Assembly (NCBI RefSeq): GCF_003752415.1
Contig: NZ_RKHG01000001.1
Span: forward strand, 2,046,001 to 2,110,000
Length of the DNA: 64,000 nt
Direction of reading: 5' to 3'
Source of the DNA: Luteococcus japonicus
GTDB taxonomy: Bacteria > Actinomycetota > Actinomycetes > Propionibacteriales > Propionibacteriaceae
Shown here: piece by piece, positions 35,699 to 50,821 of the stretch
How positions within the stretch are numbered: the first letter of the stretch is position 1
How the letters are laid out: each line of letters starts with the position of its first letter
Program-made: the position numbers and the translations under genes
Notes under the pieces: model-generated
Databases searched by the model: none
Told to the model about the DNA's origin: nothing
What the model saw: the letters and a program-made list of their open reading frames with translations, nothing else

Positions 35699-35800
35699 CG
35701 GGATCCTCACTGCGCGGATGGTTCCGCCCGGTCCTGTCGGCGCGGCTCCGGGGCCGCACCGACACGTCGAGCAATCCTGCCAATCCTACCCCGACGAGCT

Positions 35801-35827
35801 CCGCAGCCGTCGTGCGACGGGCTGCGG
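35801..35827 (-). terminator. Hairpin after the hydrolase gene
   Basis: CCGCAGCC / GGCTGCGG around a 10-base loop, just past the stop of the secreted hydrolase and upstream of gyrA. Probably ends the lanthipeptide operon. Confidence 0.55.
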
Positions 35828-35850
35828 GGCACTGCCCGTCCCCCGGTGGT

Positions 35851-37443
35851 TCAGGAGAAGGGGACGAAGTCCCCCTTGCACACGGTCCCCGGTGCCGGCA
35901 GGCTGCGGTCGAGCAGCGCCCGGTCCATGGCCGTGCTGGCACAGGTGGACAGTCCGTAGGCGGTGTGGCCCCAGTTGGTCGAGACCAGCAGACGCGCGGA
36001 GGCGCTGCGGGCAGCCACCGCACGGGCAGCGTCCAGACCGGTCGCCGGGTCGTGGGTGCTGCCCACCACGAGGATCGGCGCATGAGTGGTGGAGGCGAAG
36101 GGACCTCGCCAGGCGTCCTCGTCGACTGCCGTCCAGTCCTGTGTGGCGCAACTGAGCGACTGGTAGAGCCAGTAGGGGCCGAACAGGCCACCCGACTGTC
36201 GCGCGGCCAGCTGGCGCCAGCGCTGCGGGGACCGGGGGTTGGCGGAATCGCTGCACATCACGGCGGCGGCGAGCTCGAACTCGTTGCCGGGTGCGGCCGA
36301 CCCCTGCAACCCTTGGCCAACGAAGGGCACCTGCTCCTTCCGGGTCACGGCCTGGCGCACCACCCTGGGAGCCTTGCGCAGGTCGGGAGTGGCGCCGCCA
36401 GTGCTCGCCGGTGAGAAGACCATCTGGTGGACGCCCTCGATGATCGCCGGCACGGCTGCCGCGCCCTCGGGCTCGTGCAGCGCCATCCGCAGGTCCTGCA
36501 GCAGCATGCCGAGGGTGAGCTCGAAGCTGCCGTCCGCGTCGGTGACGAGGAGGGGTTCACGCCGCAGCCTGGTCACCACCTCGGCAAGCAGTTTCCGGGG
36601 CGTGGCGACCCCGCAGGCATCAGGGCCGGCCTGCTCGCAGGCGGCGAGGATGTCGGACAGCGCCGTCTGGGTGGCCTTCGGACCGCCGGTGCGCAACGTG
36701 ACCGGGACGTGCGCGGTGCGTGGCGAACCGCGCCAGGCCTCCGCGTCGACGACGCCGTCCAGCACCATCGCTCGCAGCCGGTTGGGGTACATCGACGCAT
36801 AGGTCTGGCCCAGGTAGGTGCCGTACGACCAGCCGAGATAACTGATCTGCCGCTCCCCCAGGGCGTCGCGCACCCGGTCCATGTCGCGGGCCACCTCGCT
36901 GGTGGACATCGCGGCGGCCAAGGGGGTGGTCGCACAGGCCCGGGCGAGGCGACGGGTGGCATCCACCAGCGGTTGCTCCGCTCCGGGCAGCGGTGCGGCG
37001 GTCATCAGAGCGGGCAGGTCGGCCTCGCGCAAGGCCGGGTCGGCATAGCAGCCCACCGGGCTGCTCTCGTTGGTGCCCCGGGGGTCCATACCGATCAGGT
37101 CGAAGCGGTCGCGCACCTCCTGGGAGAGCAGCAAGGGAGCGCGCTGGACGATCTCCTGGCCCGAGCCGCCGGGGCCGCCTGGGTTGATGAACAGCACTCC
37201 GAGACGTTGTCCAGGTACCTCCGCGCGGTGCCGGCGCAGTGCCAGGCGTACCTGGGCGCCGCCCAGGTCGTCCTTGTCCAGCGGCACGGACACGGTGCCG
37301 CACTCGTCCTGGCCGTCGGCGCAGGGGGACCACGTGATGGCGGCCGCCGGAGCAGGCGCGGCGGCGGCCCGGGTGGGGGCCGTGGTGAGGGCGATGCCCG
37401 GGAGCGCCAGGGCCAACAGCCCTGCGGCGATGCGGTGGGTCAT
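35851..37443 (-). CDS. Secreted alpha/beta hydrolase, tripeptidyl-aminopeptidase type
   Basis: 530 residues of the S33 tripeptidyl aminopeptidase family (SlpD/SlpE-like). Signal peptide in residues 1-29 (RIAAGLLALALPGIALTTAP). Oxyanion region LFINPGGPGGSGQEIVQ, GMDPRGTNESSPVGC, nucleophile Ser206 in LGWSYGTYLGQTYASMYP, Asp in VVGSTHDPATG, His in NWGHTAYG; the family's C-terminal TAP-C cap is present. Last gene of the lanthipeptide operon, 70 bases after the oligopeptidase. Proposed role: trimming the residual leader from the exported peptide; general peptide scavenging is the alternative. ATG 37443 follows GGAAG. Confidence 0.85.
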   Translation of the reverse strand: MTHRIAAGLLALALPGIALTTAPTRAAAAPAPAAAITWSPCADGQDECGTVSVPLDKDDLGGAQVRLALRRHRAEVPGQRLGVLFINPGGPGGSGQEIVQRAPLLLSQEVRDRFDLIGMDPRGTNESSPVGCYADPALREADLPALMTAAPLPGAEQPLVDATRRLARACATTPLAAAMSTSEVARDMDRVRDALGERQISYLGWSYGTYLGQTYASMYPNRLRAMVLDGVVDAEAWRGSPRTAHVPVTLRTGGPKATQTALSDILAACEQAGPDACGVATPRKLLAEVVTRLRREPLLVTDADGSFELTLGMLLQDLRMALHEPEGAAAVPAIIEGVHQMVFSPASTGGATPDLRKAPRVVRQAVTRKEQVPFVGQGLQGSAAPGNEFELAAAVMCSDSANPRSPQRWRQLAARQSGGLFGPYWLYQSLSCATQDWTAVDEDAWRGPFASTTHAPILVVGSTHDPATGLDAARAVAARSASARLLVSTNWGHTAYGLSTCASTAMDRALLDRSLPAPGTVCKGDFVPFS

Positions 37444-37513
37444 GTGGGTCTTCCTTCGGTTCGGGGTGGGTCGAGCGGGAGGTCGGTCGGCAGGTTGCAG
37501 TCGCGGGTGGACG

Positions 37514-39532
37514 TCAGGTGCTGAGAGGGCGGTGGGTGTGGTCGGCCCGGCAGTGCTCGGGGCAGCGCAGGTCGAGCACCTCCGCGGCCCACTCGACCAG
37601 TGCCCCCGGCGGACAGCCCTCCCCCCACTGGTCGTGGGTGCCCAGCGGGTCGTACCAGAGGTCTGCGCGATGGCCCAGTGCCCGGTAGCGCAGCGCCCAG
37701 GCGACACCCCTGCGCGGGTCGACGCGCACGTCACGGCCGCAGACGATGACCAACGCCCGGGGCGCCGGGGCCGGGGCGGGTGCCATCCGCGCCAGCAGCC
37801 CGGGGCCCGACAGGCGTGACAGCACACGTCGCACCTCGGGATCCTCCGGGTCGCCCCACTCGTTGCGGTCGGCCTGTGCGGTGGCGGCCCCGGCGGCCTG
37901 CAGCTCCCCCAGCGGGTCGACATAGCCGTTGACCACGATCACCGCGTCGACGGCGTCGGGGCAGCGCGCAGCCACCACCGAGGCCTGCAGGCCACCCGCA
38001 CTGGCACCCAACACGACGAGCGGGTCGGCCTGGATGCCACCATCGGCGCTCCGCAACCAACGCACGACGGCCTCCGCGTCGGCGAGGCTGTTCTCGCGCA
38101 GGGAGCCGATGGCCTGGCGGTGCCGCTCGCCTGCCCCACCGCGGACCTGGGCCGCTGCGACCGCCCAGCCCCGATCGAGCCACTCCAACAGCTGGGGGTC
38201 ACTGTCCAGGTCGAGGTCGAGCCCGTAGGCCCCGTAGAGCATCAGCGCCACCGGCCCGCGGAAGGTGGAGTCCTCGCCGTACCAGCGGGCGTCGACGCGC
38301 ACCCGGAAGCCATCGCGGGAGGTGGTCTCGCCCCAGCCGCGCTGCAGCGGGACATCGCTCCCGGCGGCATCCCCGCCCAGCGGGGCCCCGTCCGGGGAGT
38401 GGAACCAGGTGATGCCGCGGGCACCCACCCGCTCCACGAGACTGAAGCCCACCCGGGAGAGCGTGGTGTTGGACTGCAGGCGCAGCAGTCCGGGTGAGCG
38501 ACGGACCTCCGAGACCTCGCCACTGGGCAGCGCGACGCCCAGCACGAGATCCTCGGCGCCACCGTCTGCGAGCTTCGTCCGGACCCCGACCAGCGCCTGC
38601 TCCACACCTGCCGCCAGGGCGAAGGGGGTACCGTGGCCTTCGGCGAGTCGCTCGAGATGGGCGCCAGTGAAGCTGCGGGGCAATGGCTCGAGAGGGCTGG
38701 TGTACAGCTCCCAACCCTGCTCGCCGGCCACCACCACGAACAGCGTGTCGCGCTCTTCGAGGCTGCCGACCTGCACCAGGGCGGCACTCTGGCGCTCCAG
38801 CTCGATGGGCACCACGGCCGGGCTCTCGGCGTCGACGTCGAGCAGGCCGGTGTGCCTGGAGCGCCGCGGCCCCCATTCCACCGTCACCCAGCGGCGCCGT
38901 GCGGTCGGGGCGAGCGAGATCTCCGCGGCGTCACCGGTGGTGACGACCTCCGGCTCCGTCTCGCCCGACAGCAGCGCCACCACCGCCTGGGTGCGGCCGG
39001 CCCGCTCCGGATCCGGCTGCACGAAGACGATGCGGTTGCCCTCGGCACCAGCCACCAGGGCATCCGGGTAGAGGCCGGCCACCACGCCTTGGCGGCTCGG
39101 CTCCGGTTCATCCCTGCGGTAGCCGACGGCGACGTAGGCCTCACGGTGGTGCAACCGGAAGACGTTGAGCCAGTGGTCAGCGCCCTCGTCGAGGTCGATG
39201 CGGTACAGACTCAGGTTGTTGAGGTCGAGCTCGGCCTCCTGCAGCAGGAAGGTCTCGCCCAACAGGCTGCCGGGGTCACGGGGGTCGGCGATCCAACCCG
39301 CCTCCAGCCGACCATCCGGCGAGGCCCCGAGCCGGAGCCAGCCGTCGCGCATCGGGACGATGTCGAAGCCCTCGTCGGCCACTGCCTGGCCGGTCGCCAT
39401 CTCGTTGACGTCGGTGCCGAGCTGCTCCAGCGCGGTCAGCAGCTGGGAGCGGTCGGCGGCCTCCACGGCCTCGGGTGTCAGCTCTACCGGGGCGATGTCC
39501 AGATCGAGCGTGAGCGCGTGGTGCGTCGCCAC
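37514..39532 (-). CDS. Prolyl oligopeptidase (S9), probable lanthipeptide leader protease
   Basis: 672 residues, no signal peptide, hence cytoplasmic. N-terminal seven-blade-propeller region followed by a catalytic domain with Ser in VVLGASAGGLQASVVA (about residue 515), Asp in VIVCGRDVRVDPRRG and His in LGTHDQWGEG. A prolyl oligopeptidase is known to process class III leaders in the flavipeptin system. Here all four precursors have Pro15 shortly before the core, the bond such an enzyme would cut. GTG 39532 follows TAGGAGGCCACC, nine bases after the exporter stop, so the two are cotranscribed. Confidence 0.85.
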   Translation of the reverse strand: MATHHALTLDLDIAPVELTPEAVEAADRSQLLTALEQLGTDVNEMATGQAVADEGFDIVPMRDGWLRLGASPDGRLEAGWIADPRDPGSLLGETFLLQEAELDLNNLSLYRIDLDEGADHWLNVFRLHHREAYVAVGYRRDEPEPSRQGVVAGLYPDALVAGAEGNRIVFVQPDPERAGRTQAVVALLSGETEPEVVTTGDAAEISLAPTARRRWVTVEWGPRRSRHTGLLDVDAESPAVVPIELERQSAALVQVGSLEERDTLFVVVAGEQGWELYTSPLEPLPRSFTGAHLERLAEGHGTPFALAAGVEQALVGVRTKLADGGAEDLVLGVALPSGEVSEVRRSPGLLRLQSNTTLSRVGFSLVERVGARGITWFHSPDGAPLGGDAAGSDVPLQRGWGETTSRDGFRVRVDARWYGEDSTFRGPVALMLYGAYGLDLDLDSDPQLLEWLDRGWAVAAAQVRGGAGERHRQAIGSLRENSLADAEAVVRWLRSADGGIQADPLVVLGASAGGLQASVVAARCPDAVDAVIVVNGYVDPLGELQAAGAATAQADRNEWGDPEDPEVRRVLSRLSGPGLLARMAPAPAPAPRALVIVCGRDVRVDPRRGVAWALRYRALGHRADLWYDPLGTHDQWGEGCPPGALVEWAAEVLDLRCPEHCRADHTHRPLST

Positions 39533-39541
39533 GGTGGCCTC

Positions 39542-41491
39542 CTAGACCTTCACCAGGGAGCGGAAGAGCTCGGAGCGGCCGCGCAGCTCCTCGGGGCTGC
39601 CCGCGTCCATCAGCCGGCCGTTCTCGAGGACGAGCACCGCATCGGCGTGGTCCATGCCGAAGTGTCCGTGGCCGGAGGCGAAGGTGGTGACCCCACCCAT
39701 CGTCTGCTTGATCAGGTCCATCACCTGCTGGCGGTTGAGCGCGTCGAGCCCGGAGGTGATCTCGTCGAGCAGCAGCATCCGGGGGTTGCCCAGCAGCGCC
39801 CTGGCGATCGCCAGGCGTTGGCGCTCCCCACCGGAGAAGGCGTAGGCCGATTCACCCACCGCGGCGTCGAGCCCGTTCGAGCGGCTGCCGACGGTGGCTG
39901 CAAGGCCCACCTGCTCCAGCAGCTCCCAGCACCGTTCGTCGCTGGCGCGGCGGCCGAGGAGCAGGTTGTCGCGCACGGTGCCGCTGAACAGCGGACAGGA
40001 CTGGTCGATGTAGCCCACTTGGGAGCGGTAGGTGTCGTCGTCGTGCTCGTCGAGCGGGACGCCGTCCACCAGCACCCGGCCACTGCTGGGCTGAACGAAC
40101 TTCTCCAGCACCGCCAGCATCGTGCTCTTGCCCGAGCCGGAGGGGCCGGTGAGCGCGATCCACTGCCCGGGCTCGGCGTGGAAGCTCACATGGTCGAGCG
40201 CGAACTCGCGGGAGGTGTCTCCGCGATAGCGCACGCACACCTCGTCGAAGACGACGTTCCCGCGCAGCAGTGGCGGCAGTGCCCCGGTGGCCATCAGGGC
40301 CTCGGCAGCCTCGGCGACGGTGGGCTCCACCAGCAGAACCGACGAGGTGGGCTGTGCCACACCCGTGGGCCGGTGGTCCACGCGGGCGGCGTCGGTGAAT
40401 GCGGCCAGGGTGCCGGCATCACTGCCATCGGCGATGCCGCTGCGACGGTCGATGACCTCGCGCAGCTCCACGATGCGGTTGAGGGCGCCGTTCGCCTCCG
40501 CCATCATCGCCGCGGTGTCTGCCCCGCCGGCCAATGGCCCGACGATCAGCATGGTGTACATCAGGAACTCCACCAACGAGCCGACCGCGAGCTGCGACTG
40601 GTGCACCCGCACCACCGCGACGCCGACCACCAGCAGCAGCGTGGCCTGCATGGTCAGCGCGGCGACCGGCCCCATGAAGGAGCGGGCTCGGTCGTTGGCG
40701 TTGGCGGCCGACTGGAGCTCGCCGCTGCTGCGGGAGAGCCGGTCGAGGGCGAAGGCGTCGGCCACGAAGGCCCGCAGCACCAGCACCGAGTCGAGCGACC
40801 GGGTGCATTCGGCGACGAACTCGCCCTGCGCCTCCTGACGTGCCTGCGAGGTGCCACTGAGCATGCTGCCCAGCACGACGATCACGCCGAGCGCCAGCAG
40901 GCACAGGACCAGGGCGGTGGCGGTGAGCACCGGGTCGATCATGGTCATCCGGACCAGCGCGCCGACGACGAGCAGCAGCCCGCCCACGAACTGGACGGGC
41001 CCGTGGGTGAACACCTCGACGAGGTGCTCCGAGTCGATGCCGCAGCGGGCGACGAGGTCTGCGGTGGGGTGGTCGACGAGCTTGTGGGCCGGGATGCGCA
41101 GGGCGCGGGCCGAGGCCTCGTCGCGCACCGATCGCACCAGCCGGTTGCCCGCCTGCGCCGCGACGAGGTTGCCGGCCGCGGTGAGCACCGAGGACATCAG
41201 CGCGACGCCGACGAGCATGGCGCCCGGCACGAGGAGCTGTCGGAAGCCGCCGGAACCCAGCAGCGAGACGGCGCGCCCGGCCAGCACCGGCTGGGCCAGG
41301 GAGACGAGCGAGGCCGCCATCGTGAGCGCCAGGATCGACGCGACGGCGGGAGGGTTGCTGCGCAGCAGGGCCCACAGCCGCGCCACCGGGTGGTGCGGGG
41401 GCTCGTCGAGCAGTTGGGCGATGCGGTTGGGCCGTGCCGGAGCGGGCACGGCCGGCACGGGGGCACATCCTGCCAATGCGATGGCGGTCAT
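39542..41491 (-). CDS. lanT: Lanthipeptide ABC exporter (membrane domain plus ATPase)
   Basis: 649 residues. About 60 N-terminal residues, five or six spans (VASILALTMAASLVSLAQPV; FRQLLVPGAMLVGVALMSSV), then the ATPase: Walker A ALTGPSGSGKSTMLAVL, signature YAFSGGERQRLAIARALL, Walker B MLLLDEITSGLD. There is no C39 peptidase domain, as expected for class III systems where leader removal is by separate proteases. The H-loop region reads FASGHGHFGMDHAD, slightly atypical. ATG 41491 follows AAGGAGACGACC. Exports the modified peptides, by context. Confidence 0.87.
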   Translation of the reverse strand: MTAIALAGCAPVPAVPAPARPNRIAQLLDEPPHHPVARLWALLRSNPPAVASILALTMAASLVSLAQPVLAGRAVSLLGSGGFRQLLVPGAMLVGVALMSSVLTAAGNLVAAQAGNRLVRSVRDEASARALRIPAHKLVDHPTADLVARCGIDSEHLVEVFTHGPVQFVGGLLLVVGALVRMTMIDPVLTATALVLCLLALGVIVVLGSMLSGTSQARQEAQGEFVAECTRSLDSVLVLRAFVADAFALDRLSRSSGELQSAANANDRARSFMGPVAALTMQATLLLVVGVAVVRVHQSQLAVGSLVEFLMYTMLIVGPLAGGADTAAMMAEANGALNRIVELREVIDRRSGIADGSDAGTLAAFTDAARVDHRPTGVAQPTSSVLLVEPTVAEAAEALMATGALPPLLRGNVVFDEVCVRYRGDTSREFALDHVSFHAEPGQWIALTGPSGSGKSTMLAVLEKFVQPSSGRVLVDGVPLDEHDDDTYRSQVGYIDQSCPLFSGTVRDNLLLGRRASDERCWELLEQVGLAATVGSRSNGLDAAVGESAYAFSGGERQRLAIARALLGNPRMLLLDEITSGLDALNRQQVMDLIKQTMGGVTTFASGHGHFGMDHADAVLVLENGRLMDAGSPEELRGRSELFRSLVKV

Positions 41492-41631
41492 GGTCGTCTC
41501 CTTGACGGCTGGGGATGGATGGGTGGTTGCCGGCGTCCGGCTCTCACACCGGGGTGCGGATTCGTTGCCGTGGGTCAGGCGTGGGGCGGACGCGGGTGCT
41601 TGCACCGGGCGGCCGGGGGACGCACAATCAG

Positions 41632-41694
41632 AGGAGAAGCGGGTTTGCTGCTGCCCATTGCCCGGGCAACAGCAAGCCCGCTCCTGTCGTCCGG
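41632..41694 (-). terminator. Long hairpin between the last precursor and the exporter
   Basis: On the minus strand GGAGCGGGCTTGCTGTTGCCC pairs imperfectly with GCAGCAGCAAACCCGCTTCTCC around a short loop, directly after the lanA4 stop. A partial terminator that lowers expression of exporter and proteases relative to precursors is the likely function. Confidence 0.65.
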
Positions 41695-41701
41695 GGTGCT
41701 G

Positions 41702-41824
41702 TCACCAGCCCAGACAGGTGATGCTGCGGTTGCTCTGATGGCACAGGAAGTAGCTGATGTAGGAGGCCTTCTCGGCCGGCGGGGTGTCGACGTCGGCAGC
41801 TTGGTGGGCCAAGATCTCGTTCAC
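41702..41824 (-). CDS. lanA4: Class III lanthipeptide precursor 4
   Basis: 40 residues from GTG 41824, with GGGGAGG seven bases upstream. Leader MNEILAHQAADVDTP has the class III recognition pattern (ILxxQ). Core contains two ring motifs: SYISYFLC (Ser21-x2-Ser24-x3-Cys28) and SNRSITC (Ser31-x2-Ser34-x2-Cys37), then LGW. The second ring is one residue shorter than in the other three precursors. Expected product: two labionin or lanthionine rings after dehydration by LanKC. Confidence 0.85.
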   Translation of the reverse strand: MNEILAHQAADVDTPPAEKASYISYFLCHQSNRSITCLGW

Positions 41825-41860
41825 GGATTCACCTCCCCGGCACTCGACGGGAGCTGACGG

Positions 41861-41921
41861 AGCGGTCCCCGCGGGGGCCGTTGCTGCACATTGCCCGTGC
41901 AGCACCGACCCCCACGGGTCC
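41861..41921 (-). terminator. Hairpin between precursors 3 and 4
   Basis: TGCTGCAC and GTGCAGCA form an 8-bp stem, extended by imperfect pairing of CGGTCCCCGCGGGGG with the CGACCCCCACGGGTCCG on the far side. Sits between the lanA3 stop and lanA4 start; attenuation or mRNA stability element. Confidence 0.5.
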
Positions 41922-41929
41922 GGTTGGGC

Positions 41930-42055
41930 TCACTTCACCACGCAGAGCGTGATGCTCTGGAAGCTGTTACGGCACAGTGCGACGCTCCAGTTGGAGCGCT
42001 TGTCGTCGGACGGGGCCTCGACCTCGTCGACCTGGTGCTTCAGGACGTTGTTCAT
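41930..42055 (-). CDS. lanA3: Class III lanthipeptide precursor 3
   Basis: 41 residues from ATG 42055 with GGAGG eight bases upstream. Leader MNNVLKHQVDEVEAP, Pro15, then SDDKR. Core has SNWSVALC (Ser21, Ser24, Cys28) and SFQSITLC (Ser31, Ser34, Cys38), ending VVK. Both are Ser-x2-Ser-x3-Cys labionin-type motifs. Closest in spacing to precursor 1. Confidence 0.88.
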   Translation of the reverse strand: MNNVLKHQVDEVEAPSDDKRSNWSVALCRNSFQSITLCVVK

Positions 42056-42103
42056 GGAATTCACCTCCTCGTCGTGGCTCGTGTCCTCCTGGCCGATCAG
42101 CGA

Positions 42104-42229
42104 TCAGCAGAAGATGTGGCTGCGGTTGCTCTGACCGACGCCGCCGCAGAGCAGCCAGCTGTCGTTGGAGCGCTTCTCGTCGGCGGGGGTCTCGACCTCC
42201 GTCGCCTGCATTCCCAGAATGTTCGTCAT
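42104..42229 (-). CDS. lanA2: Class III lanthipeptide precursor 2
   Basis: 41 residues from ATG 42229 with GGAGG eight bases upstream. Leader MTNILGMQATEVETP, Pro15, then ADEKR. Core has SNDSWLLC (Ser21, Ser24, Cys28), a Gly-rich linker GGVGQ, and SNRSHIFC (Ser34, Ser37, Cys41) which ends the peptide with cysteine, as in labyrinthopeptins. The second ring is shifted by three residues compared with precursors 1 and 3. Confidence 0.88.
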   Translation of the reverse strand: MTNILGMQATEVETPADEKRSNDSWLLCGGVGQSNRSHIFC

Positions 42230-42290
42230 CGTGTTCACCTCCTCGGGGGACTGTCGGGTGGGCCGAGCGGCCCGGTCGGGTCGTTGGACG

Positions 42291-42416
42291 TCACTTCTTG
42301 ATGCAGAGCACCACGGAGACGTACGAGTTGCGGCACCAGCGGACACTCACCATCGAGGCCTTCTCCTGCTCGGGGGTCTCGACCTCCGAGGCCTGCATTG
42401 CCAGGACGTTGGTCAT
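42291..42416 (-). CDS. lanA1: Class III lanthipeptide precursor 1
   Basis: 41 residues from ATG 42416, preceded by AAGGGAAGGAGGTGAACGAC. Leader MTNVLAMQASEVETP, Pro15, then EQEKA. Core has SMVSVRWC (Ser21, Ser24, Cys28) and SYVSVVLC (Ser31, Ser34, Cys38), ending IKK. Cationic C-terminus. First precursor after the synthetase, 34 bases downstream, so in the same operon. Confidence 0.88.
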   Translation of the reverse strand: MTNVLAMQASEVETPEQEKASMVSVRWCRNSYVSVVLCIKK

Positions 42417-42450
42417 GTCGTTCACCTCCTTCCCTTCGTTCGTTCGGACA

Positions 42451-45075
42451 TCACGCGAACGCCGGTTCCGGCGTCGCGGGCTCTGTGGTGGTGCGTCCTG
42501 CGTCCGCGGCGCGGGGCAGCCGTTCGGCGCTCGCGCGGGAGACCGGCAGGACGAGGTAGGGCTGGTCGGCACGGTGGGCGTGGAGCGCCAGGGCTACGCC
42601 GGCGGCACCGGTGGCCAGGTCGGAACTGACCCGCAACATCCCCTCACCGATCACGAAGGCCTTCTCGTCGAGCTCGAACAGGCTGGCGCGCACCAGTCCG
42701 ACCTGCCGCTCCACTTCTGCCCGGTGCCCCGGGCCGGCGGCCAGCAGCGAGACCATCGTCCCCGCGCGGCCGTGGTGGAGTGTCGGGTAGACGAAGATGT
42801 CGGAGGAGCAGGTCTCGGCCAAGCCGCTTCGCTGCGCCTCGTCGAGGACCGGTTCTCCGGTGAGGCGCTCGACCAGCTCGGCGACCATCCAGACTCCGGC
42901 CGATCCCCAGTCGAGGTAGGGCATCACGCGCCCGTTGACCGTGTCGGGAACCATGACCTGACCGTTCGCCATGGCGACGCAGGTGGACACATCGCCCATG
43001 ACGTCCTCGCGGGCCCAGTCCAGGTAGCGATCCTCACCGGTGGCCAGGTGCGCCACGACGTCGACCAGGGCAAGGCCCGTGGTGCCGTGGTGCAGGCCTC
43101 GTCGCAGCCCGAGGGAGCGCTGGGCGGAGGCACTGGTGGCAGCGGTCCGGTGGATCCGCTCCAGACAGCCGAGGGCATCGGCGAGGAGCTTCTCGTCACC
43201 GGCCGCGCCTGCCACCTCGATGGCAGCCAGCACGGCCCCCGACTGGCCCTCCGCCAGTTCGAGCCGACGGAGCCCTTGGGCGGTCTCGAGGGCCTGTGCC
43301 GCAGCTCTGGCACCTGCTTCCGGACGGCCGAGTTCCGACAGGGCCAGTGCCAGACCAGCCTGACCGTGCATCAGGTTCGGCTCAGCGCCCACCGGCCAGG
43401 TGCCGGCGACCGTGGTCACGGCCTCGAGAGCCGCCTGGTCCACCGGGTGTCCGGTGCGCTGCTGGGCCAGCAGAACACCGGCCCGGCCATGCGCGAGGCC
43501 GTGCACCGCGACCGGATCCTCCGGGTGAGGATCGCCCGGGTAGGAACCGTCGGTACCGAAGTCGCGAGACCAGTCGACGCCGGCCATCAGGGCCTCGACG
43601 AGGTCCGACAGCTGCGGACCGCCCGGCTGGTGGTGCAGCTGTACGTCGCTCGCGAGCACCGAACGGGTGCCGGCCGGGTAGCGGGCCTCGACCTCGGCGA
43701 GCAGGGCGTCGACCTCAGGGCCGTAGGCCTCGGCCACCATGTGTCGGCAGCTCGTCCAGAAGTCCGGTGAGACGGCCTCCGCTTCCCAGTCGGAGTAGAA
43801 GCACAGCATCAGGGCCCTCGCGATGGCGAACCAGTCGGCAGCCCGGGCATCGACACTGGTCTCGGCGCAGTACTCGAAGACCCGGAAGCCGATCTCCCGC
43901 GGCTGGTCCAGACGCTGCGCATCCTCCAGGTCGACGACGGTGACGGCGAGGTCGGGGCCCACCAGGACGTTGCCGGCGTGCACGTCGCCGAGAGCCCAGC
44001 CACGGTCATGGATCGACTGCACGATGTCGACCAGTTGCCGTCCGATGCGGGCCACCTGACGCGCGTACTGCTCGGGCTGCTCCTGCTGGAGCCCGATGCC
44101 GGCCACCACCCAGGAGGTGAGCGTGGTGCCCTCGACGTAGTCGAGCTCCAGGTAACTGTGCTCCCAGGCGGTGAACTGTCCCCGCAGGCGCTGCACGCCC
44201 GGCAGTCCGGCGAGCTGTTCGAGCACGTGCTGCTCGGTGCGCTGGCGGGTCAGGGCGCAGCGGCCACGGCCGTCGAGGCCGGCGTGGGGCCTCGCCTCGC
44301 GCAGCACGCGCTGTTGCCCGTCGGGCAGGGTGGCCCGGTAGACGCCGCCGGCGTTGCTGAAGTGCAGCGGTGTGATGGCGGTGAACTCGTCCAGGCGCGA
44401 GGCCACCTTGCCCTCTGCGGCCTCCATGGCCGTGCGGACCACCTCGGGCACCTGGACGCCGTCCGGCACGTGGAAGCGGGGCTGGCGCTGGTCAGGCTCG
44501 AGCCCGCAGAGGTCCACGCGGGTGATGCTCGCGACGCGCTCGTCCTCGGCACCCGGGACGTCCAGGGCCAGGAAGGCGCCGTAGCGAACGAAGACCGGTG
44601 CCCGGCCGATGCGCAGGTCGGAGAGGATGTACGGCCCCTGGCGCCCGTCGAGGGTGACGGTGAGGCGTGCCAGCAAGTCGGTCAGGTCGGCGTCGTCGAC
44701 CGGGTAGATCGTGATGAACTTGCCCGAGCTGCCCCGGTGGGCCTGCTTGCTGCTGGAGTCGATGAGCACGGCCAGCGTGGGGAGGAACTTGAACGCAGTT
44801 CCGCGCTCCACGCAGATGGCGGTGACATCGGCCAGCGTCGCGGCGGCCTCCTCCGGGGTGGTGGAGATGTGGATCTTCCAGCCCTGGAGCCGCGGCTCCC
44901 AGTCGCGGGGGGTCCAGCTCTCCCAGCCGCCGAAGCGGTGGAGGAGCCACCCGGCCGGCAGCTCGTTGGTCTGCACCGGGGCGTCACCGCCGGCGACGAA
45001 GACCTCGTTGGGCTGGGCGGCGTAGTACGGAGAATTTTTTGCCGTCGTCATGTAGTGCTGGGCCTGGATGGGCAT
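42451..45075 (-). CDS. lanKC: Class III lanthipeptide synthetase LanKC
   Basis: 874 residues with the three-module order of class III enzymes. Lyase domain (1-210): YYAAQPNEV, LQGWKIHISTTPEEAAATL, GTAFKFLP, SSGKFITIYP with the lysines that act in phosphate elimination. Kinase domain (about 235-480): LREARPHAG, catalytic loop LGDVHAGNVLV (Asp364, Asn369) and VDLEDA (metal-binding Asp). Cyclase-like domain (about 520-845): VHGLAHGRAGVLLA, LMHGQAGLALALS, LHHGTTGLALVD, LDWGSAGVWM and LHHGRAGTMVSL; the Cys-Cys-His zinc ligands of LanC/LanL are not present (LDWG in place of WCxG, HHG in place of CHG), which places it in class III rather than IV. ATG 45075 follows AAAGGAGGAGAA. Confidence 0.93.
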   Translation of the reverse strand: MPIQAQHYMTTAKNSPYYAAQPNEVFVAGGDAPVQTNELPAGWLLHRFGGWESWTPRDWEPRLQGWKIHISTTPEEAAATLADVTAICVERGTAFKFLPTLAVLIDSSSKQAHRGSSGKFITIYPVDDADLTDLLARLTVTLDGRQGPYILSDLRIGRAPVFVRYGAFLALDVPGAEDERVASITRVDLCGLEPDQRQPRFHVPDGVQVPEVVRTAMEAAEGKVASRLDEFTAITPLHFSNAGGVYRATLPDGQQRVLREARPHAGLDGRGRCALTRQRTEQHVLEQLAGLPGVQRLRGQFTAWEHSYLELDYVEGTTLTSWVVAGIGLQQEQPEQYARQVARIGRQLVDIVQSIHDRGWALGDVHAGNVLVGPDLAVTVVDLEDAQRLDQPREIGFRVFEYCAETSVDARAADWFAIARALMLCFYSDWEAEAVSPDFWTSCRHMVAEAYGPEVDALLAEVEARYPAGTRSVLASDVQLHHQPGGPQLSDLVEALMAGVDWSRDFGTDGSYPGDPHPEDPVAVHGLAHGRAGVLLAQQRTGHPVDQAALEAVTTVAGTWPVGAEPNLMHGQAGLALALSELGRPEAGARAAAQALETAQGLRRLELAEGQSGAVLAAIEVAGAAGDEKLLADALGCLERIHRTAATSASAQRSLGLRRGLHHGTTGLALVDVVAHLATGEDRYLDWAREDVMGDVSTCVAMANGQVMVPDTVNGRVMPYLDWGSAGVWMVAELVERLTGEPVLDEAQRSGLAETCSSDIFVYPTLHHGRAGTMVSLLAAGPGHRAEVERQVGLVRASLFELDEKAFVIGEGMLRVSSDLATGAAGVALALHAHRADQPYLVLPVSRASAERLPRAADAGRTTTEPATPEPAFA

Positions 45076-45367
45076 TTCTCCTCCTTTCCGAAAAGTTGAG
45101 CCGTGCCCCGAAGGTTTGTCGGACCTGCCCTCCGAACGCCCGGAAGTGGGCAGCAGCACGGCCGATGAGCCAGTCAGTATCTGGTTCCCGGCCGCAGCTG
45201 CCGCTCCTGTCCGTGCCATACCCCCGTCCAGACCGGTGGGCAAGGGCTCGTGCGCCTTCCTGATGGGCGAGCACTCACAGGGACGCGACCTGCGCGAGGG
45301 GAGGGAATTCCCGAAGACATCGCCCCCCCAGAACAGGGGCGAACCGATTCGCCTCCAAGGCATCGCA
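45076..45367 (-). promoter_or_regulatory. Promoter region of the lanthipeptide operon
   Basis: About 290 bases with no convincing gene between the synthetase start and the terminator of the upstream ABC permease. It must hold the operon promoter; no motif could be assigned with confidence. Confidence 0.45.
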
Positions 45368-45406
45368 AAGGGTCCGGGAACATCTGGACGATGGTCCCGG
45401 ACCCTT
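45368..45406 (-). terminator. Terminator of the FtsX-type permease gene
   Basis: AAGGGTCCGGGA / TCCCGGACCCTT, perfect 12-bp stem with a 15-base loop, about 80 bases past the permease stop. Confidence 0.75.
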
Positions 45407-45486
45407 GGTCAGCAGATTTCCGCGCCAGCCGCAGTGCGACGACAAGGCAGTCGCCACGGTGAAAGAGGATTCAGCGACGCATGGCA

Positions 45487-46896
45487 TCAGTCGGCGATCA
45501 GCCGGGCCACGACCTGGGGCTCACTGCGTCGCAGCGCGCCCAGGGTGGGCAGCACCGTGCCGACGATGTCGACCAGCAGGCAGACCCCGATCGCGGCCAC
45601 TGCGACGAACCAGTTGTGCGGGAATGCGGTGACCATTCCGGCTGCATGGAGCCCGGCGGCAAGGAACCCCATGCTGGCGACCACCATCGTCAGACCCATC
45701 AGCGAGCCGGTGACGGTGATGATGACCGCTTCCAGCAGGGGCAGCAAGACCCGCTGGCTCGGTGTCGCTCCAACGACGCCCACCAGCGCCAGTTCCGCGT
45801 CACGCTGCCGCGACATCATGACCAGTGAACCCACGGCACCGCACAGTGCGATGAACAGGGGAAGACCCAGCCACATGAAGCTGGTGGCCATGCCGATGGC
45901 GGAAAGCTGGATGTCGAAGCCGTTCGCCGTGAGGCTGGACTGGAGGATGTCGCCAGAGGCCAGGCCACCGATCAGCAGGCCCACGGTCAGCATGACGGGC
46001 ACGACGGTCTTCGAGAGCCTGGCCCCGCGCACGCTGCAGTTCCTGCGCGCCAAGTACCAGACGGCGTTCTTCGACGGGACCAGGGCCGTCCAGGCGTGGG
46101 TGAGCGGGCCCACGAGGATGGGGGCCAGTGCAGCGAGCAGGACGCCCACGAGAAGAAGCATGGCAGAGCTCAACTGGAAGAAGTTGCTCACGGTCTCCTT
46201 GCCGCTCATCCGGGCGATGGAACCGATGGCCCCCCACTCACCGGTGAGGACGAGCACGCACAGCGCGACCAGCAGCCACCGCCCCACGCCCATACGGCGC
46301 TCCCCGTCGGCCTGCGACTGGCGCAGCGCCTCGACCGGGTCGATGCGGCTGGCGCGGCGGGCCTGGCGGAGCCCGCCCACCAGAGCGGCGAGGATGGCCA
46401 ACCCACCAGCGGCGAGGATCACCAAGGGGTCCGGATCGAACTTCGGGATCGGCAACCAGACCTGGTCGCTGCGCTCGTAGGCCATGAAGCGCAGCGTCGC
46501 CGGGAGGGCTGCCACGGCGAGCGCGGCGCCCACGAGGCACGAGAACACGCTCACCAGCGCGAGCTGGGAACCGACGCTGACCACCACCTGTGCGGGGGTG
46601 GCCCCCGCTAGGGCCAGCCGAGCGAGCGCCCCTCGGCGGGAATCCACCACCAAGGAGGTCGACGCGTCGATCACCATCATCCCGACCACAAGGCCGAAGA
46701 CGAGGTTCATCGCGGGGTTCCAGATGTAGGCCGCCGAGTTGATGATCGGCAGCTTCTCGTCGATGACGCAACGGATGCCCGCCTTGAGCGCCAGCGACGA
46801 CAGGATCAGCACGAAGTTGGCACCGATGAAACCGATGCTGACGCCGAGCCAGGCCGTCCAGCTGGAGCGGATCTCCGCCCAGTGCACCTTGCACAT
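45487..46896 (-). CDS. ABC transporter permease, FtsX/MacB type
   Basis: 469 residues with two FtsX-like halves: spans near 17-38, 60-80 and 105-130 followed by the conserved RRASRIDPVEALRQ, and a second block starting GARLSKTVVPVMLTVGLLIG with GSLVMMSRQRDAELALVGVV and GATPSQRVLLPLLEA. ATG 46896 overlaps the ATPase stop by one base. Probably a self-protection or second export system for the lanthipeptides; the FtsX-type architecture fits peptide-handling exporters. Substrate not visible. Confidence 0.86.
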   Translation of the reverse strand: MCKVHWAEIRSSWTAWLGVSIGFIGANFVLILSSLALKAGIRCVIDEKLPIINSAAYIWNPAMNLVFGLVVGMMVIDASTSLVVDSRRGALARLALAGATPAQVVVSVGSQLALVSVFSCLVGAALAVAALPATLRFMAYERSDQVWLPIPKFDPDPLVILAAGGLAILAALVGGLRQARRASRIDPVEALRQSQADGERRMGVGRWLLVALCVLVLTGEWGAIGSIARMSGKETVSNFFQLSSAMLLLVGVLLAALAPILVGPLTHAWTALVPSKNAVWYLARRNCSVRGARLSKTVVPVMLTVGLLIGGLASGDILQSSLTANGFDIQLSAIGMATSFMWLGLPLFIALCGAVGSLVMMSRQRDAELALVGVVGATPSQRVLLPLLEAVIITVTGSLMGLTMVVASMGFLAAGLHAAGMVTAFPHNWFVAVAAIGVCLLVDIVGTVLPTLGALRRSEPQVVARLIAD

Positions 46897-47675
46897 CAGC
46901 GCTCACCCCGACGGGACGTGATCCCGGCCAGCGCGCGGGCCACCTGCTCGGTGGAGGTGGGACGCAGCTCGTCGACCAGCAGGCCGTCGCGCATGAACAG
47001 GATCCTGTCGCAGCTGGCGGCCACCGTCGGGTCGTGGGTGACGACCACGACGCAGGCGTCGTCGCGGTGGGCGAGCCGGCCGAGGTGGCCCAGCACGAGC
47101 TCGCTGCTGCGGGAGTCGAGGGCGCCGGTGGGCTCGTCGGCGAAGATGGTGCTCGGCTGCTGGGCCAGCACCCGGGCCAGAGCGACGCGCTGCTGCTCGC
47201 CACCGGACATCGACGGGGGCCGGGCATCGCGACGGTGGGCGAGCCCCACGCTCTCGAGCACGCCCTCGACCACCGCCACGTCGGCCTTCTCGTGCCGCAG
47301 CAGGTGAGGCAGGCAGACGTTCTCGAAGGCGGTCAGCGTCGGCACCAGGTTGTAGGCCTGGAAGACGAATCCCACCTCGCCGCGCCGCATGCGGGCTAGG
47401 TCGGCACGCGAGCACTCGGCCAGGTTGCGGCCGTTGACGACCACCTCACCGGCGTCCGGACGCTCCAGCCCGGCGAGGCAGTAAAGGAGGGTGGACTTGC
47501 CGGAGCCGGAGGCGCCCATGACGGCCACCATTTCTCCGGGACGTGCTTCGAGGGACACCCCGTGCAGCACCGGCACCTGGGTACCGCCGGTGGTGAAGGT
47601 CTTCGTGATGTCTCGGGCAGCCACCGCGGGCTGGCCGGTCAGGGTGGGAGCAGGCTGCTCCGGCGTCGCGGTCAT
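46896..47675 (-). CDS. ABC transporter ATP-binding protein, MacB/LolD type
   Basis: 259 residues. Walker A VMGASGSGKSTLLYCLAGL, Q-loop VGFVFQAYNLVPTLTAFENV typical of MacB/LolD ATPases, signature SMSGGEQQRVALARVL, Walker B TIFADEPTGALDSRSSELVL, H-loop VVVTHDPTVAASCDR. Start ATG 47675 after AAGGAGACCCG. Pairs with the adjacent permease. Confidence 0.92.
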   Translation of the reverse strand: MTATPEQPAPTLTGQPAVAARDITKTFTTGGTQVPVLHGVSLEARPGEMVAVMGASGSGKSTLLYCLAGLERPDAGEVVVNGRNLAECSRADLARMRRGEVGFVFQAYNLVPTLTAFENVCLPHLLRHEKADVAVVEGVLESVGLAHRRDARPPSMSGGEQQRVALARVLAQQPSTIFADEPTGALDSRSSELVLGHLGRLAHRDDACVVVVTHDPTVAASCDRILFMRDGLLVDELRPTSTEQVARALAGITSRRGER

Positions 47676-47824
47676 CGGGTCTCCTTCGCCGGCGCGCCGG
47701 GGACCGGTGTCCCCGACCAGCGGGCCGGTCATGACCCAGCACAGACGACCGGGTCACCGCGGCGCCACCACGGGCGACGCATCATGACCGAAAGTTTGGA
47801 TCTCGTGCCGCTTGGTTGCCCGCG

Positions 47825-48505
47825 TCAGGCATCGAGGGGGACGCTTTCGAGGTCGACCAGGCCCAGCTGCAGCGCCTTGACCAGGATGCTGGTACGCGAG
47901 CGGACCCCCAGCTTGCGGCCGATGGCGAGCAGCGTCTGCTTGACCGAGCTGTCGGAGACGTACATGGCGGCCCCGATCTCCTGGTTGCTCATGCCGCGCG
48001 CCAGCAGTCCCAAGACCTCCAGCTCGCGGGACTTCAACTGAACGGCGGCCTCCTTCGGTGCCGGGCGGGCAGCGTGACGATCGACCATGGCCGCCACCAT
48101 GTCCTTGCGCACCGAGGGCGACAGGGGCATGTCACCGGCCATCGCCTGATGTAGGCCGGAGACCAGGCCGGGACCACCGACGTCCTTGAGGAGGTAACCG
48201 GCAGCCCCCGCGGAGAGCGCCGCCAGCACCTGGTCGAGCGGGTCGAAGGAGGTCATGATCACGATGCAGGCACCCGGGTGCTGGGCGATGATCTCGCGGG
48301 TCGCCGCCACCCCGTCCATCACCGGCATCTGCAGGTCCATCAGCAGCACGTCCGGCTGGTGGCGGTCGTAGAGGTCGACGCCCTCGCTGCCGTCACGGCC
48401 CTCGGCGCAGACCTCGAACTCTTCCTGGGCGGCGAAGAAGCGGCGATAGGTGGACCTCACGAGGACGTCGTCGTCGACGATGAGCAGCGAGTGGGATGCC
48501 TTCAC
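47825..48505 (-). CDS. Response regulator of the lanthipeptide locus, LuxR/NarL family
   Basis: 226 residues. Receiver LLIVDDDVLVRSTYRRFF, phosphoaspartate in VLLMDLQMPVMDG, T in VIMTSFDPLDQ, K in YLLKDVGGPG; LuxR domain LKSRELEVLGLLARGMSNQE and VSDSSVKQTLLAIGRKLGV. GTG 48505 has a weak ribosome site. Transcribed toward the ABC pair and divergent from the small secreted peptide and kinase, with which it likely forms a quorum- or stress-sensing circuit. Confidence 0.9.
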   Translation of the reverse strand: MKASHSLLIVDDDVLVRSTYRRFFAAQEEFEVCAEGRDGSEGVDLYDRHQPDVLLMDLQMPVMDGVAATREIIAQHPGACIVIMTSFDPLDQVLAALSAGAAGYLLKDVGGPGLVSGLHQAMAGDMPLSPSVRKDMVAAMVDRHAARPAPKEAAVQLKSRELEVLGLLARGMSNQEIGAAMYVSDSSVKQTLLAIGRKLGVRSRTSILVKALQLGLVDLESVPLDA

Positions 48506-48570
48506 TCTGTAGACGGTAACAGTCGTTCGGAATCATCGAAATACCCGAAAGTGAACCTTGATTGACCAAA

Positions 48571-48587
48571 CGCTGGGTTACCCAGCG
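48571..48587. promoter_or_regulatory. Perfect palindrome, candidate operator
   Basis: CGCTGGGT-T-ACCCAGCG, a perfect 17-base palindrome centred between the divergent response-regulator (start 48505) and secreted-peptide (start 48653) genes. A binding site for the response regulator is the simplest reading; a leader hairpin is the alternative. Confidence 0.6.
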
Positions 48588-48652
48588 CTTCGAGGGCAGA
48601 AATGATGGCAGTGGCCGCAGGCCTTCCACCCCTACCCACAAGAGTCCCCGTC

Positions 48653-48850
48653 ATGAAGCACCTCGCCGTCTCCCTCGCCACCGTCGCCACCCTCGCCCTG
48701 TCGATGGGCGTCTCGACCCCCGCCCACGCCGCCCCTGCCACCAATCCCGGTCACGCGGCGACCAGCCAGTTGCTCGACAGCGAGACCACGACGTCGAGCG
48801 CCTCGGCATCCATCTGGCGCCCCTGCACGCTGATCAAGCGTTGCCGCTGA
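48653..48850 (+). CDS. Small secreted peptide with C-terminal Cys pair
   Basis: 65 residues. Clear Sec signal peptide (MKHLAVSLATVATLALSMGV, cleavage at AHA-AP) and a mature part of about 39 residues: a Ser/Thr-rich segment (SETTTSSASAS) and the tail IWRPCTLIKRCR, where two cysteines could form a disulfide loop. No family recognised. It sits between the response regulator and sensor kinase of the lanthipeptide locus, 77 bases upstream of the kinase, so an exported signal or an accessory immunity peptide is possible. Not a lanthipeptide precursor by leader type. Confidence 0.7.
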   Translation: MKHLAVSLATVATLALSMGVSTPAHAAPATNPGHAATSQLLDSETTTSSASASIWRPCTLIKRCR

Positions 48851-48927
48851 TCCCACCCCCGCACGCTGGACCGGTCCGGCGACCCCCGCCTGATAGCTTC
48901 GCGATGAAGGCACCCCGGAGGGCAGAG

Positions 48928-50688
48928 ATGACGCAGGCGGCCAATGGCTACCGAACGGCAGTGACCCGTACGCTCCGACCCATCGTGATGGCGTCGGTCC
49001 TCGCCGACGAACTGAGCCATGAGCTCTACCTCTCCATGGACCATTCCTCGTCGAGCCTGTCAGCCTTCGAGCTGGCGCAGGCCTGGACGATGTTGCTGCT
49101 CATTGCCGCCGTCATGTGGCAGCGCCGCCGCATGGTCATGGTGACCGGGGCGATCTCCCTCGTCCTGGCACTCACCCGCGGCACCGCCAACGGACTGGAG
49201 ATCGTCCTGATCCCCGCTGCCTCACTGGTGGCCCAGCTCACCATGTCCTGGCGGGGCCGCGCTCTGGTGCATGCCGCCCTGCAGCTGGTGACGCTGGGCT
49301 GTGTGGTCCATGCGCCAGGGGGGCAGAACCTGGAGATGTGGGTCGTCTTCACCCTCATCCAGCTGGGCTCCACCCTTCTGGCCTGGACCGGCGACTGGAT
49401 CCTCACCCGGCGCGAACGACTGCTCAACGAGGCCGCGGCCTACCGCGAGGAGTCGAGTGCGCTGAGGTCGCGGGAGATGTCGCGCCTGGCCGACGAGATG
49501 GAGCAGACGATCACCGGGGGGCTGACCCGCATCCGGGCCATCTCCTCCAGCCGGCCCACGGACGCCGAGCTGGCGGCAGCCCTGGACGAGGTGGCCGCCG
49601 AGAACCGCGCAGTGGTCTCCGACCTCCGCACCCTGGTGCACGGTCTTCGCACCTCCGCGCAACGCGAGAGTCCTACCGCACCCACGGGACACCCCTGCGC
49701 GACCCGGTGGTTTCGTTCGGCTGCGGTGGTCCTCCTGCTCGGCGTGTTCGTCACGCTGGTGGCCATGCCCGCCTCCATCGGGCAGCTGGCGGTGTGCTGG
49801 CCGTTGACGGTGGTCCTGGTGATGGTGCTGTGGCCTCGGTTGGCACCAGCACTCGTCCTGCTGGTCGGCACCAGTACCGCCCGGGTTGTGGTGCGCGACC
49901 ATGTCGCCGTCGCGGAGCTCGTGGCGCTGTTCGACGACTGCCTGGTCGCCGGCCTGGTCACCTTCGGTCTCCGGGAGCTGGTGCTGGGCCGTCGACGGGC
50001 GGCCGAGAGCCTCGTCGAGGCCCACCGGACACGCATGGAGGACGCAGCCGGCGACCGCGCCGCGGTGGCGCGTGAGGTGCACGACGTGGTGGGCCACCAG
50101 TTGTCCGTCACGTCCATGCAGTTGATGGAGGCCTCCCTCAGCGATGATCCGCGGACTCGCCGTGAGACCTTGGAGGGGATCCGACAGGTGGCCGACGCGG
50201 CGGAACGCGACCTCGCCGTCCTGCTCGCCTCGTTGCGGGAGCACGACGCGTCCGCGAGCCCCGGTGGGCCGCTGGTGAGGCCGAGCACGGCCGTGGACCA
50301 AAACGTCGCCGCGCTCCTGCGCGCCGGCCACGAGGTCGACATGGAGACGACCCCCGGGATCGACCACCTGCCGGACCCCGTCCAACGCACCATCACCCGC
50401 ATCCTGCAGGAGGCCACCACCAACATCCTGCGCCATGCCGAGCCTGGCTCCACCTGCCGTGTGGAGGTGCGCACTGACGACCTCGGCAGCACACAGCTCC
50501 TCGTCTCCAACCAGCCCCGGGTGCACCCACTGGCCCATCCGCACTCCCACGGATGGGGCCTGCGCGGCATCAACGAACGGATGGAACTGCTCGGGGCCGA
50601 ATTCCACGCCGGCCTGCGTCACGGACGCTGGGTCGTCGACGCACACTTCCCACCCCCGCACCGCGAGGGGGAGGCGACAGCTGCCTGA
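48928..50688 (+). CDS. Sensor histidine kinase of the lanthipeptide locus, with duplicated sensor half
   Basis: 586 residues. Two membrane blocks: first (about 20-160) followed by a degenerate dimerization segment lacking its phosphohistidine (ALRSREMSRLADEMEQTITG ... ENRAVVSDLRTLVHGLR); second (about 265-360) followed by a complete NarL-type transmitter: AAVAREVHDVVGHQLSVTSM, ATPase N box LQEATTNILRHAEPG and GWGLRGINERMELLGAEF. The duplication without a first H box is unusual. ATG 48928 after GGAGGGCAGAG; ATG 48904 is an upstream alternative. Confidence 0.87.
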   Translation: MTQAANGYRTAVTRTLRPIVMASVLADELSHELYLSMDHSSSSLSAFELAQAWTMLLLIAAVMWQRRRMVMVTGAISLVLALTRGTANGLEIVLIPAASLVAQLTMSWRGRALVHAALQLVTLGCVVHAPGGQNLEMWVVFTLIQLGSTLLAWTGDWILTRRERLLNEAAAYREESSALRSREMSRLADEMEQTITGGLTRIRAISSSRPTDAELAAALDEVAAENRAVVSDLRTLVHGLRTSAQRESPTAPTGHPCATRWFRSAAVVLLLGVFVTLVAMPASIGQLAVCWPLTVVLVMVLWPRLAPALVLLVGTSTARVVVRDHVAVAELVALFDDCLVAGLVTFGLRELVLGRRRAAESLVEAHRTRMEDAAGDRAAVAREVHDVVGHQLSVTSMQLMEASLSDDPRTRRETLEGIRQVADAAERDLAVLLASLREHDASASPGGPLVRPSTAVDQNVAALLRAGHEVDMETTPGIDHLPDPVQRTITRILQEATTNILRHAEPGSTCRVEVRTDDLGSTQLLVSNQPRVHPLAHPHSHGWGLRGINERMELLGAEFHAGLRHGRWVVDAHFPPPHREGEATAA

Positions 50689-50767
50689 GCCCCGGCACCG
50701 TACCCGGCGGCCGTCGACCGTGGGGTTCGCGGCCGGTCACCGCGGCGAGGCGTCAACCCCTGGGCGT

Positions 50768-50804
50768 GACGAGGCCCCCGGGCATGGTGCCCGGGGGCCT
50801 CGTC
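50768..50804. terminator. Strong bidirectional hairpin at the locus edge
   Basis: GACGAGGCCCCCGGGCA / TGCCCGGGGGCCTCGTC, perfect 17-bp stem with a three-base loop, between the convergent kinase and gyrB genes. Marks the gyrB-side boundary of the lanthipeptide insertion. Confidence 0.88.
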
Positions 50805-50821
50805 GGTGCTGCGGTGCTCGC

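Follow-up and report, generated by a model that had tools for sequence, protein, structure and literature searches.

Among the described class III lanthipeptide systems, that of andalusicin in Bacillus thuringiensis is the closest structural counterpart of the locus treated here: its synthetase, ThurKC, has the same three-domain LanKC fold, and the system likewise has more than one precursor (PMC10604976). The literature also contains a class III cluster that has 13 copies of one precursor (PMC7268733) and one "like labyrinthopeptin", reported for Propioniciclava soli SCSIO 13291 (PMC10668361). A further paper, which names Arachnia and Propioniciclava, concerns leaderless bacteriocins (PMC11580447). 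This study deals with a stretch of 64,000 nucleotides of Luteococcus japonicus (contig NZ_RKHG01000001.1, positions 2,046,001 to 2,110,000; hereafter the window), which very probably carries a class III lanthipeptide cluster composed of one LanKC and four different precursors, A1 to A4, with two rings per peptide. Since the P. soli cluster and multi-precursor class III clusters are in print, the kind of cluster is known, and the four predicted peptides are additions to a well-populated class. The more useful part is the group of 13 natural LanKCs to which the enzyme belongs and which is marked by a double kinase and cyclase substitution that is seen in none of 51 other proteins. The core genes are as follows, in window positions:

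42451..45075, minus strand: LanKC, class III lanthionine synthetase (lyase, kinase and cyclase domains), 874 amino acids
42291..42416, minus strand: precursor A1, 41 amino acids, core SMVSVRWCRNSYVSVVLCIKK
42104..42229, minus strand: precursor A2, 41 amino acids, core SNDSWLLCGGVGQSNRSHIFC
41930..42055, minus strand: precursor A3, 41 amino acids, core SNWSVALCRNSFQSITLCVVK
41702..41824, minus strand: precursor A4, 40 amino acids, GTG start, core SYISYFLCHQSNRSITCLGW

An original prediction, made from the letters of the window, had assigned the synthetase to class III, and several lines of evidence agree with this. The enzyme exceeds the cut-off of the NCBIfam class III equivalog NF038151 (645.3 bits, cut-off 575), as do all five group relatives that were scanned, and it stays far below that of the class IV model NF038150 (286.2 bits, cut-off 650), while the Pfam model RamC_N (PF25816) gives 201.9 bits (cut-off 27). 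An AlphaFold model based on a 23-row alignment (predicted local distance difference test 88.9, predicted template modelling score 0.87) suggests that lyase, kinase and cyclase domains are joined in one chain. Its top structural match is ThurKC (Z score 45.1, 807 residues aligned, root-mean-square deviation 3.0 Å, 24% identity over the structural alignment), followed by SalKC, CuvL and PneKC, and its C-terminal cyclase part matches LanCL2 with a Z score of 30.2. For the lyase domain of ThurKC, eight residues have been singled out, Lys65, His67, Lys94, Lys108, Lys117, Asp152, Arg163 and Arg191 (PMC10604976), and all of them are retained, the counterparts being K67, H69, K96, K110, K119, D153, R164 and R197.

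The same prediction had described the LanKC gene as being followed by four open reading frames (ORFs) of 40 to 41 residues with homologous leaders, and the coordinates, the leaders and a strong ribosome site of the GGAGGTGA type ahead of each were confirmed. The leaders share 8 to 14 of 20 residues in pairwise comparison, each contains a proline, and all display the pattern L-x-[M/H]-Q, a variant of the class III LxLQ motif. As had also been claimed, every core starts at Ser21 with an S-x2-S-x3-C motif and contains a second motif, which is S-x2-S-x3-C in A1 to A3 and S-x2-S-x2-C in A4. This double ring motif is a specific feature: of the 48 ORFs of 28 to 70 amino acids with a strong ribosome site in the 64-kb window, only A1 to A4 possess it, and it was absent from all 1322 comparable ORFs of 20 first-order Markov random windows.

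Both active sites of the LanKC differ from those of ThurKC. In the kinase domain, Arg259, located inside strand 255-261 of the model, aligns with the β3 lysine of ThurKC, Lys257, which is within hydrogen-bonding distance of Glu279; a change of either residue to alanine was damaging (PMC10604976). The residue counts given here refer to the 64 best-scoring loci rather than to all matches, namely 13 of the group and 51 others, with L049 omitted as a 247-amino-acid fragment that does not cover the positions; the 51 others serve as an outgroup by virtue of their match to the LanKC, and L063 is the only one among them on which the class III model was run. Arginine occupies the β3 position in all 13 group members, and the 51 others have 49 lysines, one arginine and one gap. 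The β3 lysine is no formal criterion for class III, yet the alignment assigns it to 49 of the 50 outgroup proteins with a residue at this place. The single outgroup protein with arginine, L063 of genome G274, falls outside the group in the tree, and no class III-type precursor was recognised near it with the patterns used at positions 5000 to 13000 of L092. The α-C glutamate (E281), Asp364, Asn369 and the DxE motif at 382-384 are kept in the LanKC and in all 13 members, and, apart from gaps in a single partial row, the remaining kinase and lyase positions inspected are likewise retained throughout the group.

In the cyclase domain, the NisC residues Cys284, Cys330 and His331 correspond to Ser726, Phe770 and Asp771 of ThurKC (PMC10604976), and an alignment through ThurKC places Asp722, His767 and His768 of the LanKC at these zinc-ligand positions. 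Both cysteines of the Cys/Cys/His ligand set would thus be lost and the histidine present, as judged by a sequence alignment that is uncertain in the loops; this is in line with class III cyclases, which do not have the full ligand set. The ThurKC paper states that simple cyclase-domain alignments blur similarities because of variable loops (PMC10604976), and the structural place of residues 722, 767 and 768 therefore needs checking. An acid is found at position 722 in 12 of the 13 members, but also in 29 of the 51 others; position 767 is Asp in 11 members, His in one and Leu in one, compared with Phe in 43 of the others; and position 768 is His in 13 of 13 versus 5 of 51. Arg259 and His768 occur together in every group member and in none of the others, and the combination of an acid at 722, Asp or His at 767 and His768 is present in 11 of 13 and again in none of the others. 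An acid at position 606, which aligns with an acid of NisC, was discarded as a signature residue, since 12 of the 13 members share it with 17 of the 51 others.

The Arg/His combination came up neither in a single literature search on LanKC kinase residues nor in the passages of PMC10604976 consulted, and this enzyme signature seems to be the new part of the finding. The two residues could be associated with an altered use of nucleotide or metal. A tentative and rather doubtful extension of this idea is that the group has rebuilt both active sites, with a kinase that operates without the canonical ATP-anchoring lysine and a cyclase that is perhaps metal-assisted again, and that, with up to nine precursors per enzyme, it represents a natural set of promiscuous LanKCs. 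In this view the acid at 722, Asp or His at 767 and His768 take the place of the zinc site of class I LanC, at which most other class III enzymes carry Phe together with a variable residue. The group makes two questions testable, namely how class III cyclases act without zinc, described as partly open in PMC10604976, and whether peptides are phosphorylated by a protein kinase fold with a β3 arginine. For peptide engineering, too, enzymes with up to nine probable precursor substrates would be of practical use.

Sixteen of 198 Propionibacteriaceae genomes, including that of L. japonicus, have a LanKC match at 1e-30 or better. Thirteen LanKCs form the group, and the twelve besides that of the window (loci L002-L004, L034-L040, L046 and L047) are 47.7 to 52.7% identical to it; the best match outside the family, from a set of 394 genomes belonging to the class, is 37% identical. 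In a 60-protein tree, the 12 long group proteins are separated from the rest by a branch 1.52 changes per column long, which has a Shimodaira-Hasegawa-like approximate likelihood ratio support of 100; this tree was made with a quick method and a midpoint root, L040, L043, L045 and L090 were left out beforehand, and the long branch of L063 meets the group stem, so that its place is unsure. In the genome sets searched, this deep group seems to be present only in Propionibacteriaceae. Members include Nigerium massiliense, Micropruina sp. KQZ13P-5, which NCBI lists under Nocardioidaceae and the genome set used under the family of the window, P. soli and [Pseudopropionibacterium] massiliense. P. 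soli YIM S02567 possesses a group LanKC, 48% identical to that of the window, and four precursors; judging from the species, its cluster and that of SCSIO 13291 are probably the same.

Twelve loci, including that of the window, were compared for gene content using thresholds of E 1e-15 and more than 100 bits, over stretches of 14.7 to 19.9 kb within which absences are valid. Eleven of them, that of the window among them, have 2 to 9 precursors, and L052 has a single one; precursor arrays are thus usual in the group. The claim that the window encodes four distinct products was judged plausible, with the qualification that multiple precursors are not exceptional. Some copies are identical, as in L053, and others are strongly different. 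Gln8 of the leader and Ser24, Cys28 and Cys38 are invariant across 24 chosen precursors. Two S-x2-S-x(2-5)-C motifs are present in 37 of 43 distinct group precursors, a list that omits two very short candidates of 31 and 32 amino acids and one plus-strand ORF of 74 amino acids. As a separate observation, the four identical precursors of L053 have 32 residues and a single short ring motif, and lie beside a group LanKC. The first precursor after the LanKC is of a separate type in L025 (12669), L027 (12811), L028 (12748) and L058 (9800), with cores like STNSMYACAPRSTLSISC and without the usual lysine ahead of the core.

Several results weigh against a functional class III cluster. The Pfam models Pkinase and LANC_like both remain under cut-off on the LanKC by sequence, the LanC-like model PF05147 reaching 22.0 bits, just short of 23.2, and a LanC-like search of the L. 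japonicus genome gave no match. None of the four precursors exceeds any curated lanthipeptide cut-off of NCBIfam or Pfam, including the SapB/AmfS family threshold (NF033212, at least 25 bits). A1 comes closest (NF038159 25.5 bits, cut-off 30; NF033212 21.3, cut-off 25; RamS 23.1, cut-off 24.3), A3 gives 22.0 bits with NF033212 and 20.1 with RamS, and A2 has weak scores (NF038159 14.5, NF033212 13.6, RamS 16.1 bits), whereas A4 has no match to any lanthipeptide model. A precursor model score helps with the assignment but does not define the class, and divergent members may fail to reach the cut-off; A4 is called a precursor because of its leader similarity, motif and position. The β3 position is the remaining concern. 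A change of this lysine is normally expected to harm a protein kinase, and lysine to arginine is the classical kinase-dead change. The alanine variant of ThurKC Lys257 yielded degraded peptide fragments (PMC10604976). With arginine in all 13 members and inside the predicted strand, the kinase of the group might be impaired, leaving the peptides unmodified or partly modified and the clusters decaying or in another role. This is very improbable, given that the group retains the remaining kinase and lyase positions inspected, gaps in that partial row aside, that the ring serines and cysteines are kept while the cores differ, which is unlike decay, and that two clusters of this group are retained in each of the genomes G109 and G122.

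For the class III cluster, we infer the following route. The LanKC would bind the L-x-[M/H]-Q leaders of the four precursors, phosphorylate all four serines of the ring motifs in a core and eliminate the phosphate to give dehydroalanines. The two cysteines would then take part in closing two rings in every peptide, either labionin or lanthionine. The three chemical steps from phosphorylation to cyclisation are proposed because they are established class III chemistry and because the eight ThurKC lyase residues are kept. For cores that start at Ser21 and have lost four waters, the calculated monoisotopic masses are 2384.243 (A1), 2206.979 (A2), 2282.145 (A3) and 2305.056 (A4). The original prediction of labionin or lanthionine rings stands as far as the presence of the motifs is concerned, and labionin is one possible outcome, since the Sx2Sx3C motif of class III peptides leads to labionin in certain cases and to lanthionine in others (PMC7268733). 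Lanthionines, formed between the first serine and the cysteine, are quite possible, if somewhat short of an even chance: this double outcome of the motif and the unusual cyclase residues of the group argue for them, but most precursors keep both serines of each motif, as the 37 of 43 with two motifs illustrate.

The original prediction spanned 41702 to 45075, and its genes were right, but the rest of the cluster, which extends over about 35.8 to 50.7 kb, had been left out. Downstream of the precursors are the genes for an exporter and two candidate peptidases, and upstream of the LanKC gene are those for a permease, an ATPase, a regulator and a histidine kinase (ABC, ATP-binding cassette; loci out of the 12 compared):

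35851..37443, minus strand: TAP-like alpha/beta hydrolase, candidate trimming peptidase (PF00561, PF08386), 5 of 12 loci
37514..39532, minus strand: S9-family peptidase, candidate leader peptidase (PF00326, 54.4 bits), 10 of 12 loci
39542..41491, minus strand: ABC exporter, fused permease and ATPase, likely for peptide export (PF00664, PF00005), 11 of 12 loci
45487..46896, minus strand: FtsX-type ABC permease, candidate immunity or sensing transporter (PF02687, 59.1 bits), 7 of 12 loci
46896..47732, minus strand: ABC ATPase, likely partner of the permease (PF00005, 121.4 bits), 7 of 12 loci
47825..48505, minus strand: NarL/LuxR-type response regulator (PF00072, PF00196), 6 of 12 loci
48562..50688, plus strand: histidine kinase (HisKA_3, PF07730, 44.2 bits; PF02518 under cut-off), ORF as listed from TTG

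The fused ABC transporter would export the peptides, and the FtsX/ABC pair together with the two-component system would probably sense and resist the product. This points to an activity between bacteria, suggested solely by the transporter and two-component genes. As a further point on the negative side, the FtsX/ABC pair was not found in 5 of the 12 loci and the response regulator in 6, so that the immunity reading is not general. The SapB/RamS and AmfS models are among the nearest precursor models for A1 to A3, with scores under cut-off, and to our knowledge the SapB and AmfS clusters have neither an S9 peptidase nor precursor arrays. Both peptides are described as morphological signals (PMC13380574), and the products might, like them, be surfactants or developmental signals and not antibacterials. 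This is unlikely, given that the cluster includes an FtsX/ABC pair and a two-component system, that the four cores differ and that related loci have up to nine precursors, all of them indirect arguments.

The S9 enzyme is the first, if uncertain, candidate for leader removal, perhaps acting with the TAP-like hydrolase or with one of the four M1-type peptidases encoded elsewhere in the genome. The solved relatives of the S9 peptidase are PREPL, prolyl endopeptidase and oligopeptidase B; the TAP-like hydrolase has an apparent signal sequence, as judged by eye, and Hip1 is among its solved relatives. Flavipeptin is a product of Kribbella flavida. Its system likewise combines a class III precursor with an in-cluster S9 prolyl oligopeptidase, FlaP (PMC10885120), and the leader proline is present in all four precursors of the window, a likeness drawn from the description of FlaP. 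Unlike in that system, 12 of the 43 distinct group precursors lack a [TASV]P pattern (which misses, for example, one leader with Met-Pro), and the S9 enzyme of the window also resembles oligopeptidase B. Andalusicin differs in that its M16B leader peptidases are encoded outside the cluster (PMC10604976), whereas the S9 peptidase is inside it here. The M1 peptidases are further candidates because, according to a review, other bacteria use enzymes of the M1 type to process the leaders of class III peptides (PMC10885120).

Cleavage after Pro15 by a prolyl oligopeptidase was considered as a settled step and is weakened, since S9-bearing loci include leaders without that proline; across the group, the S9 gene and the proline do not go together. 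Close to where the core begins, 37 of 43 distinct precursors have, by the pattern used, a lysine followed after one or two residues by serine; a lysine-directed, oligopeptidase-B-like cleavage would fit, but this lysine is also kept at two loci without the S9 enzyme, and both cuts are tentative. The P. soli YIM S02567 stretches L023 and L026 contain no relative of the S9 peptidase or ABC exporter of the window. Pfam scans of 16 ORFs of L023, which include overlapping ORFs of both strands and of which 10 had no match, revealed no peptidase; matches were to a poly(A) polymerase/HD protein, an oligopeptide ABC transporter, a carbohydrate phosphorylase and a mechanosensitive channel.

The entire set of about 15 kb lies between gyrB and gyrA (window 35711-50821). 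gyrB was found in all 37 genomes searched and gyrA in 36 (not in G003), and in 32 of the 37 genomes the two matches are within about 0.3 kb on one contig. This includes G001 (79% complete), a genome of the same genus in which gyrB and gyrA are adjacent and which has no LanKC match. The two genes are 15.1 kb apart in L. japonicus, 15.4 kb in G005 and 4.9 kb in G015, and are on different contigs in G002. Since G005 and G015 carry other inserts at the same place, insertion at this junction may be recurrent. The 15.4-kb insert of G005 differs in content and encodes, among others, a sugar-type ABC transporter, a creatininase and a GH123 protein.

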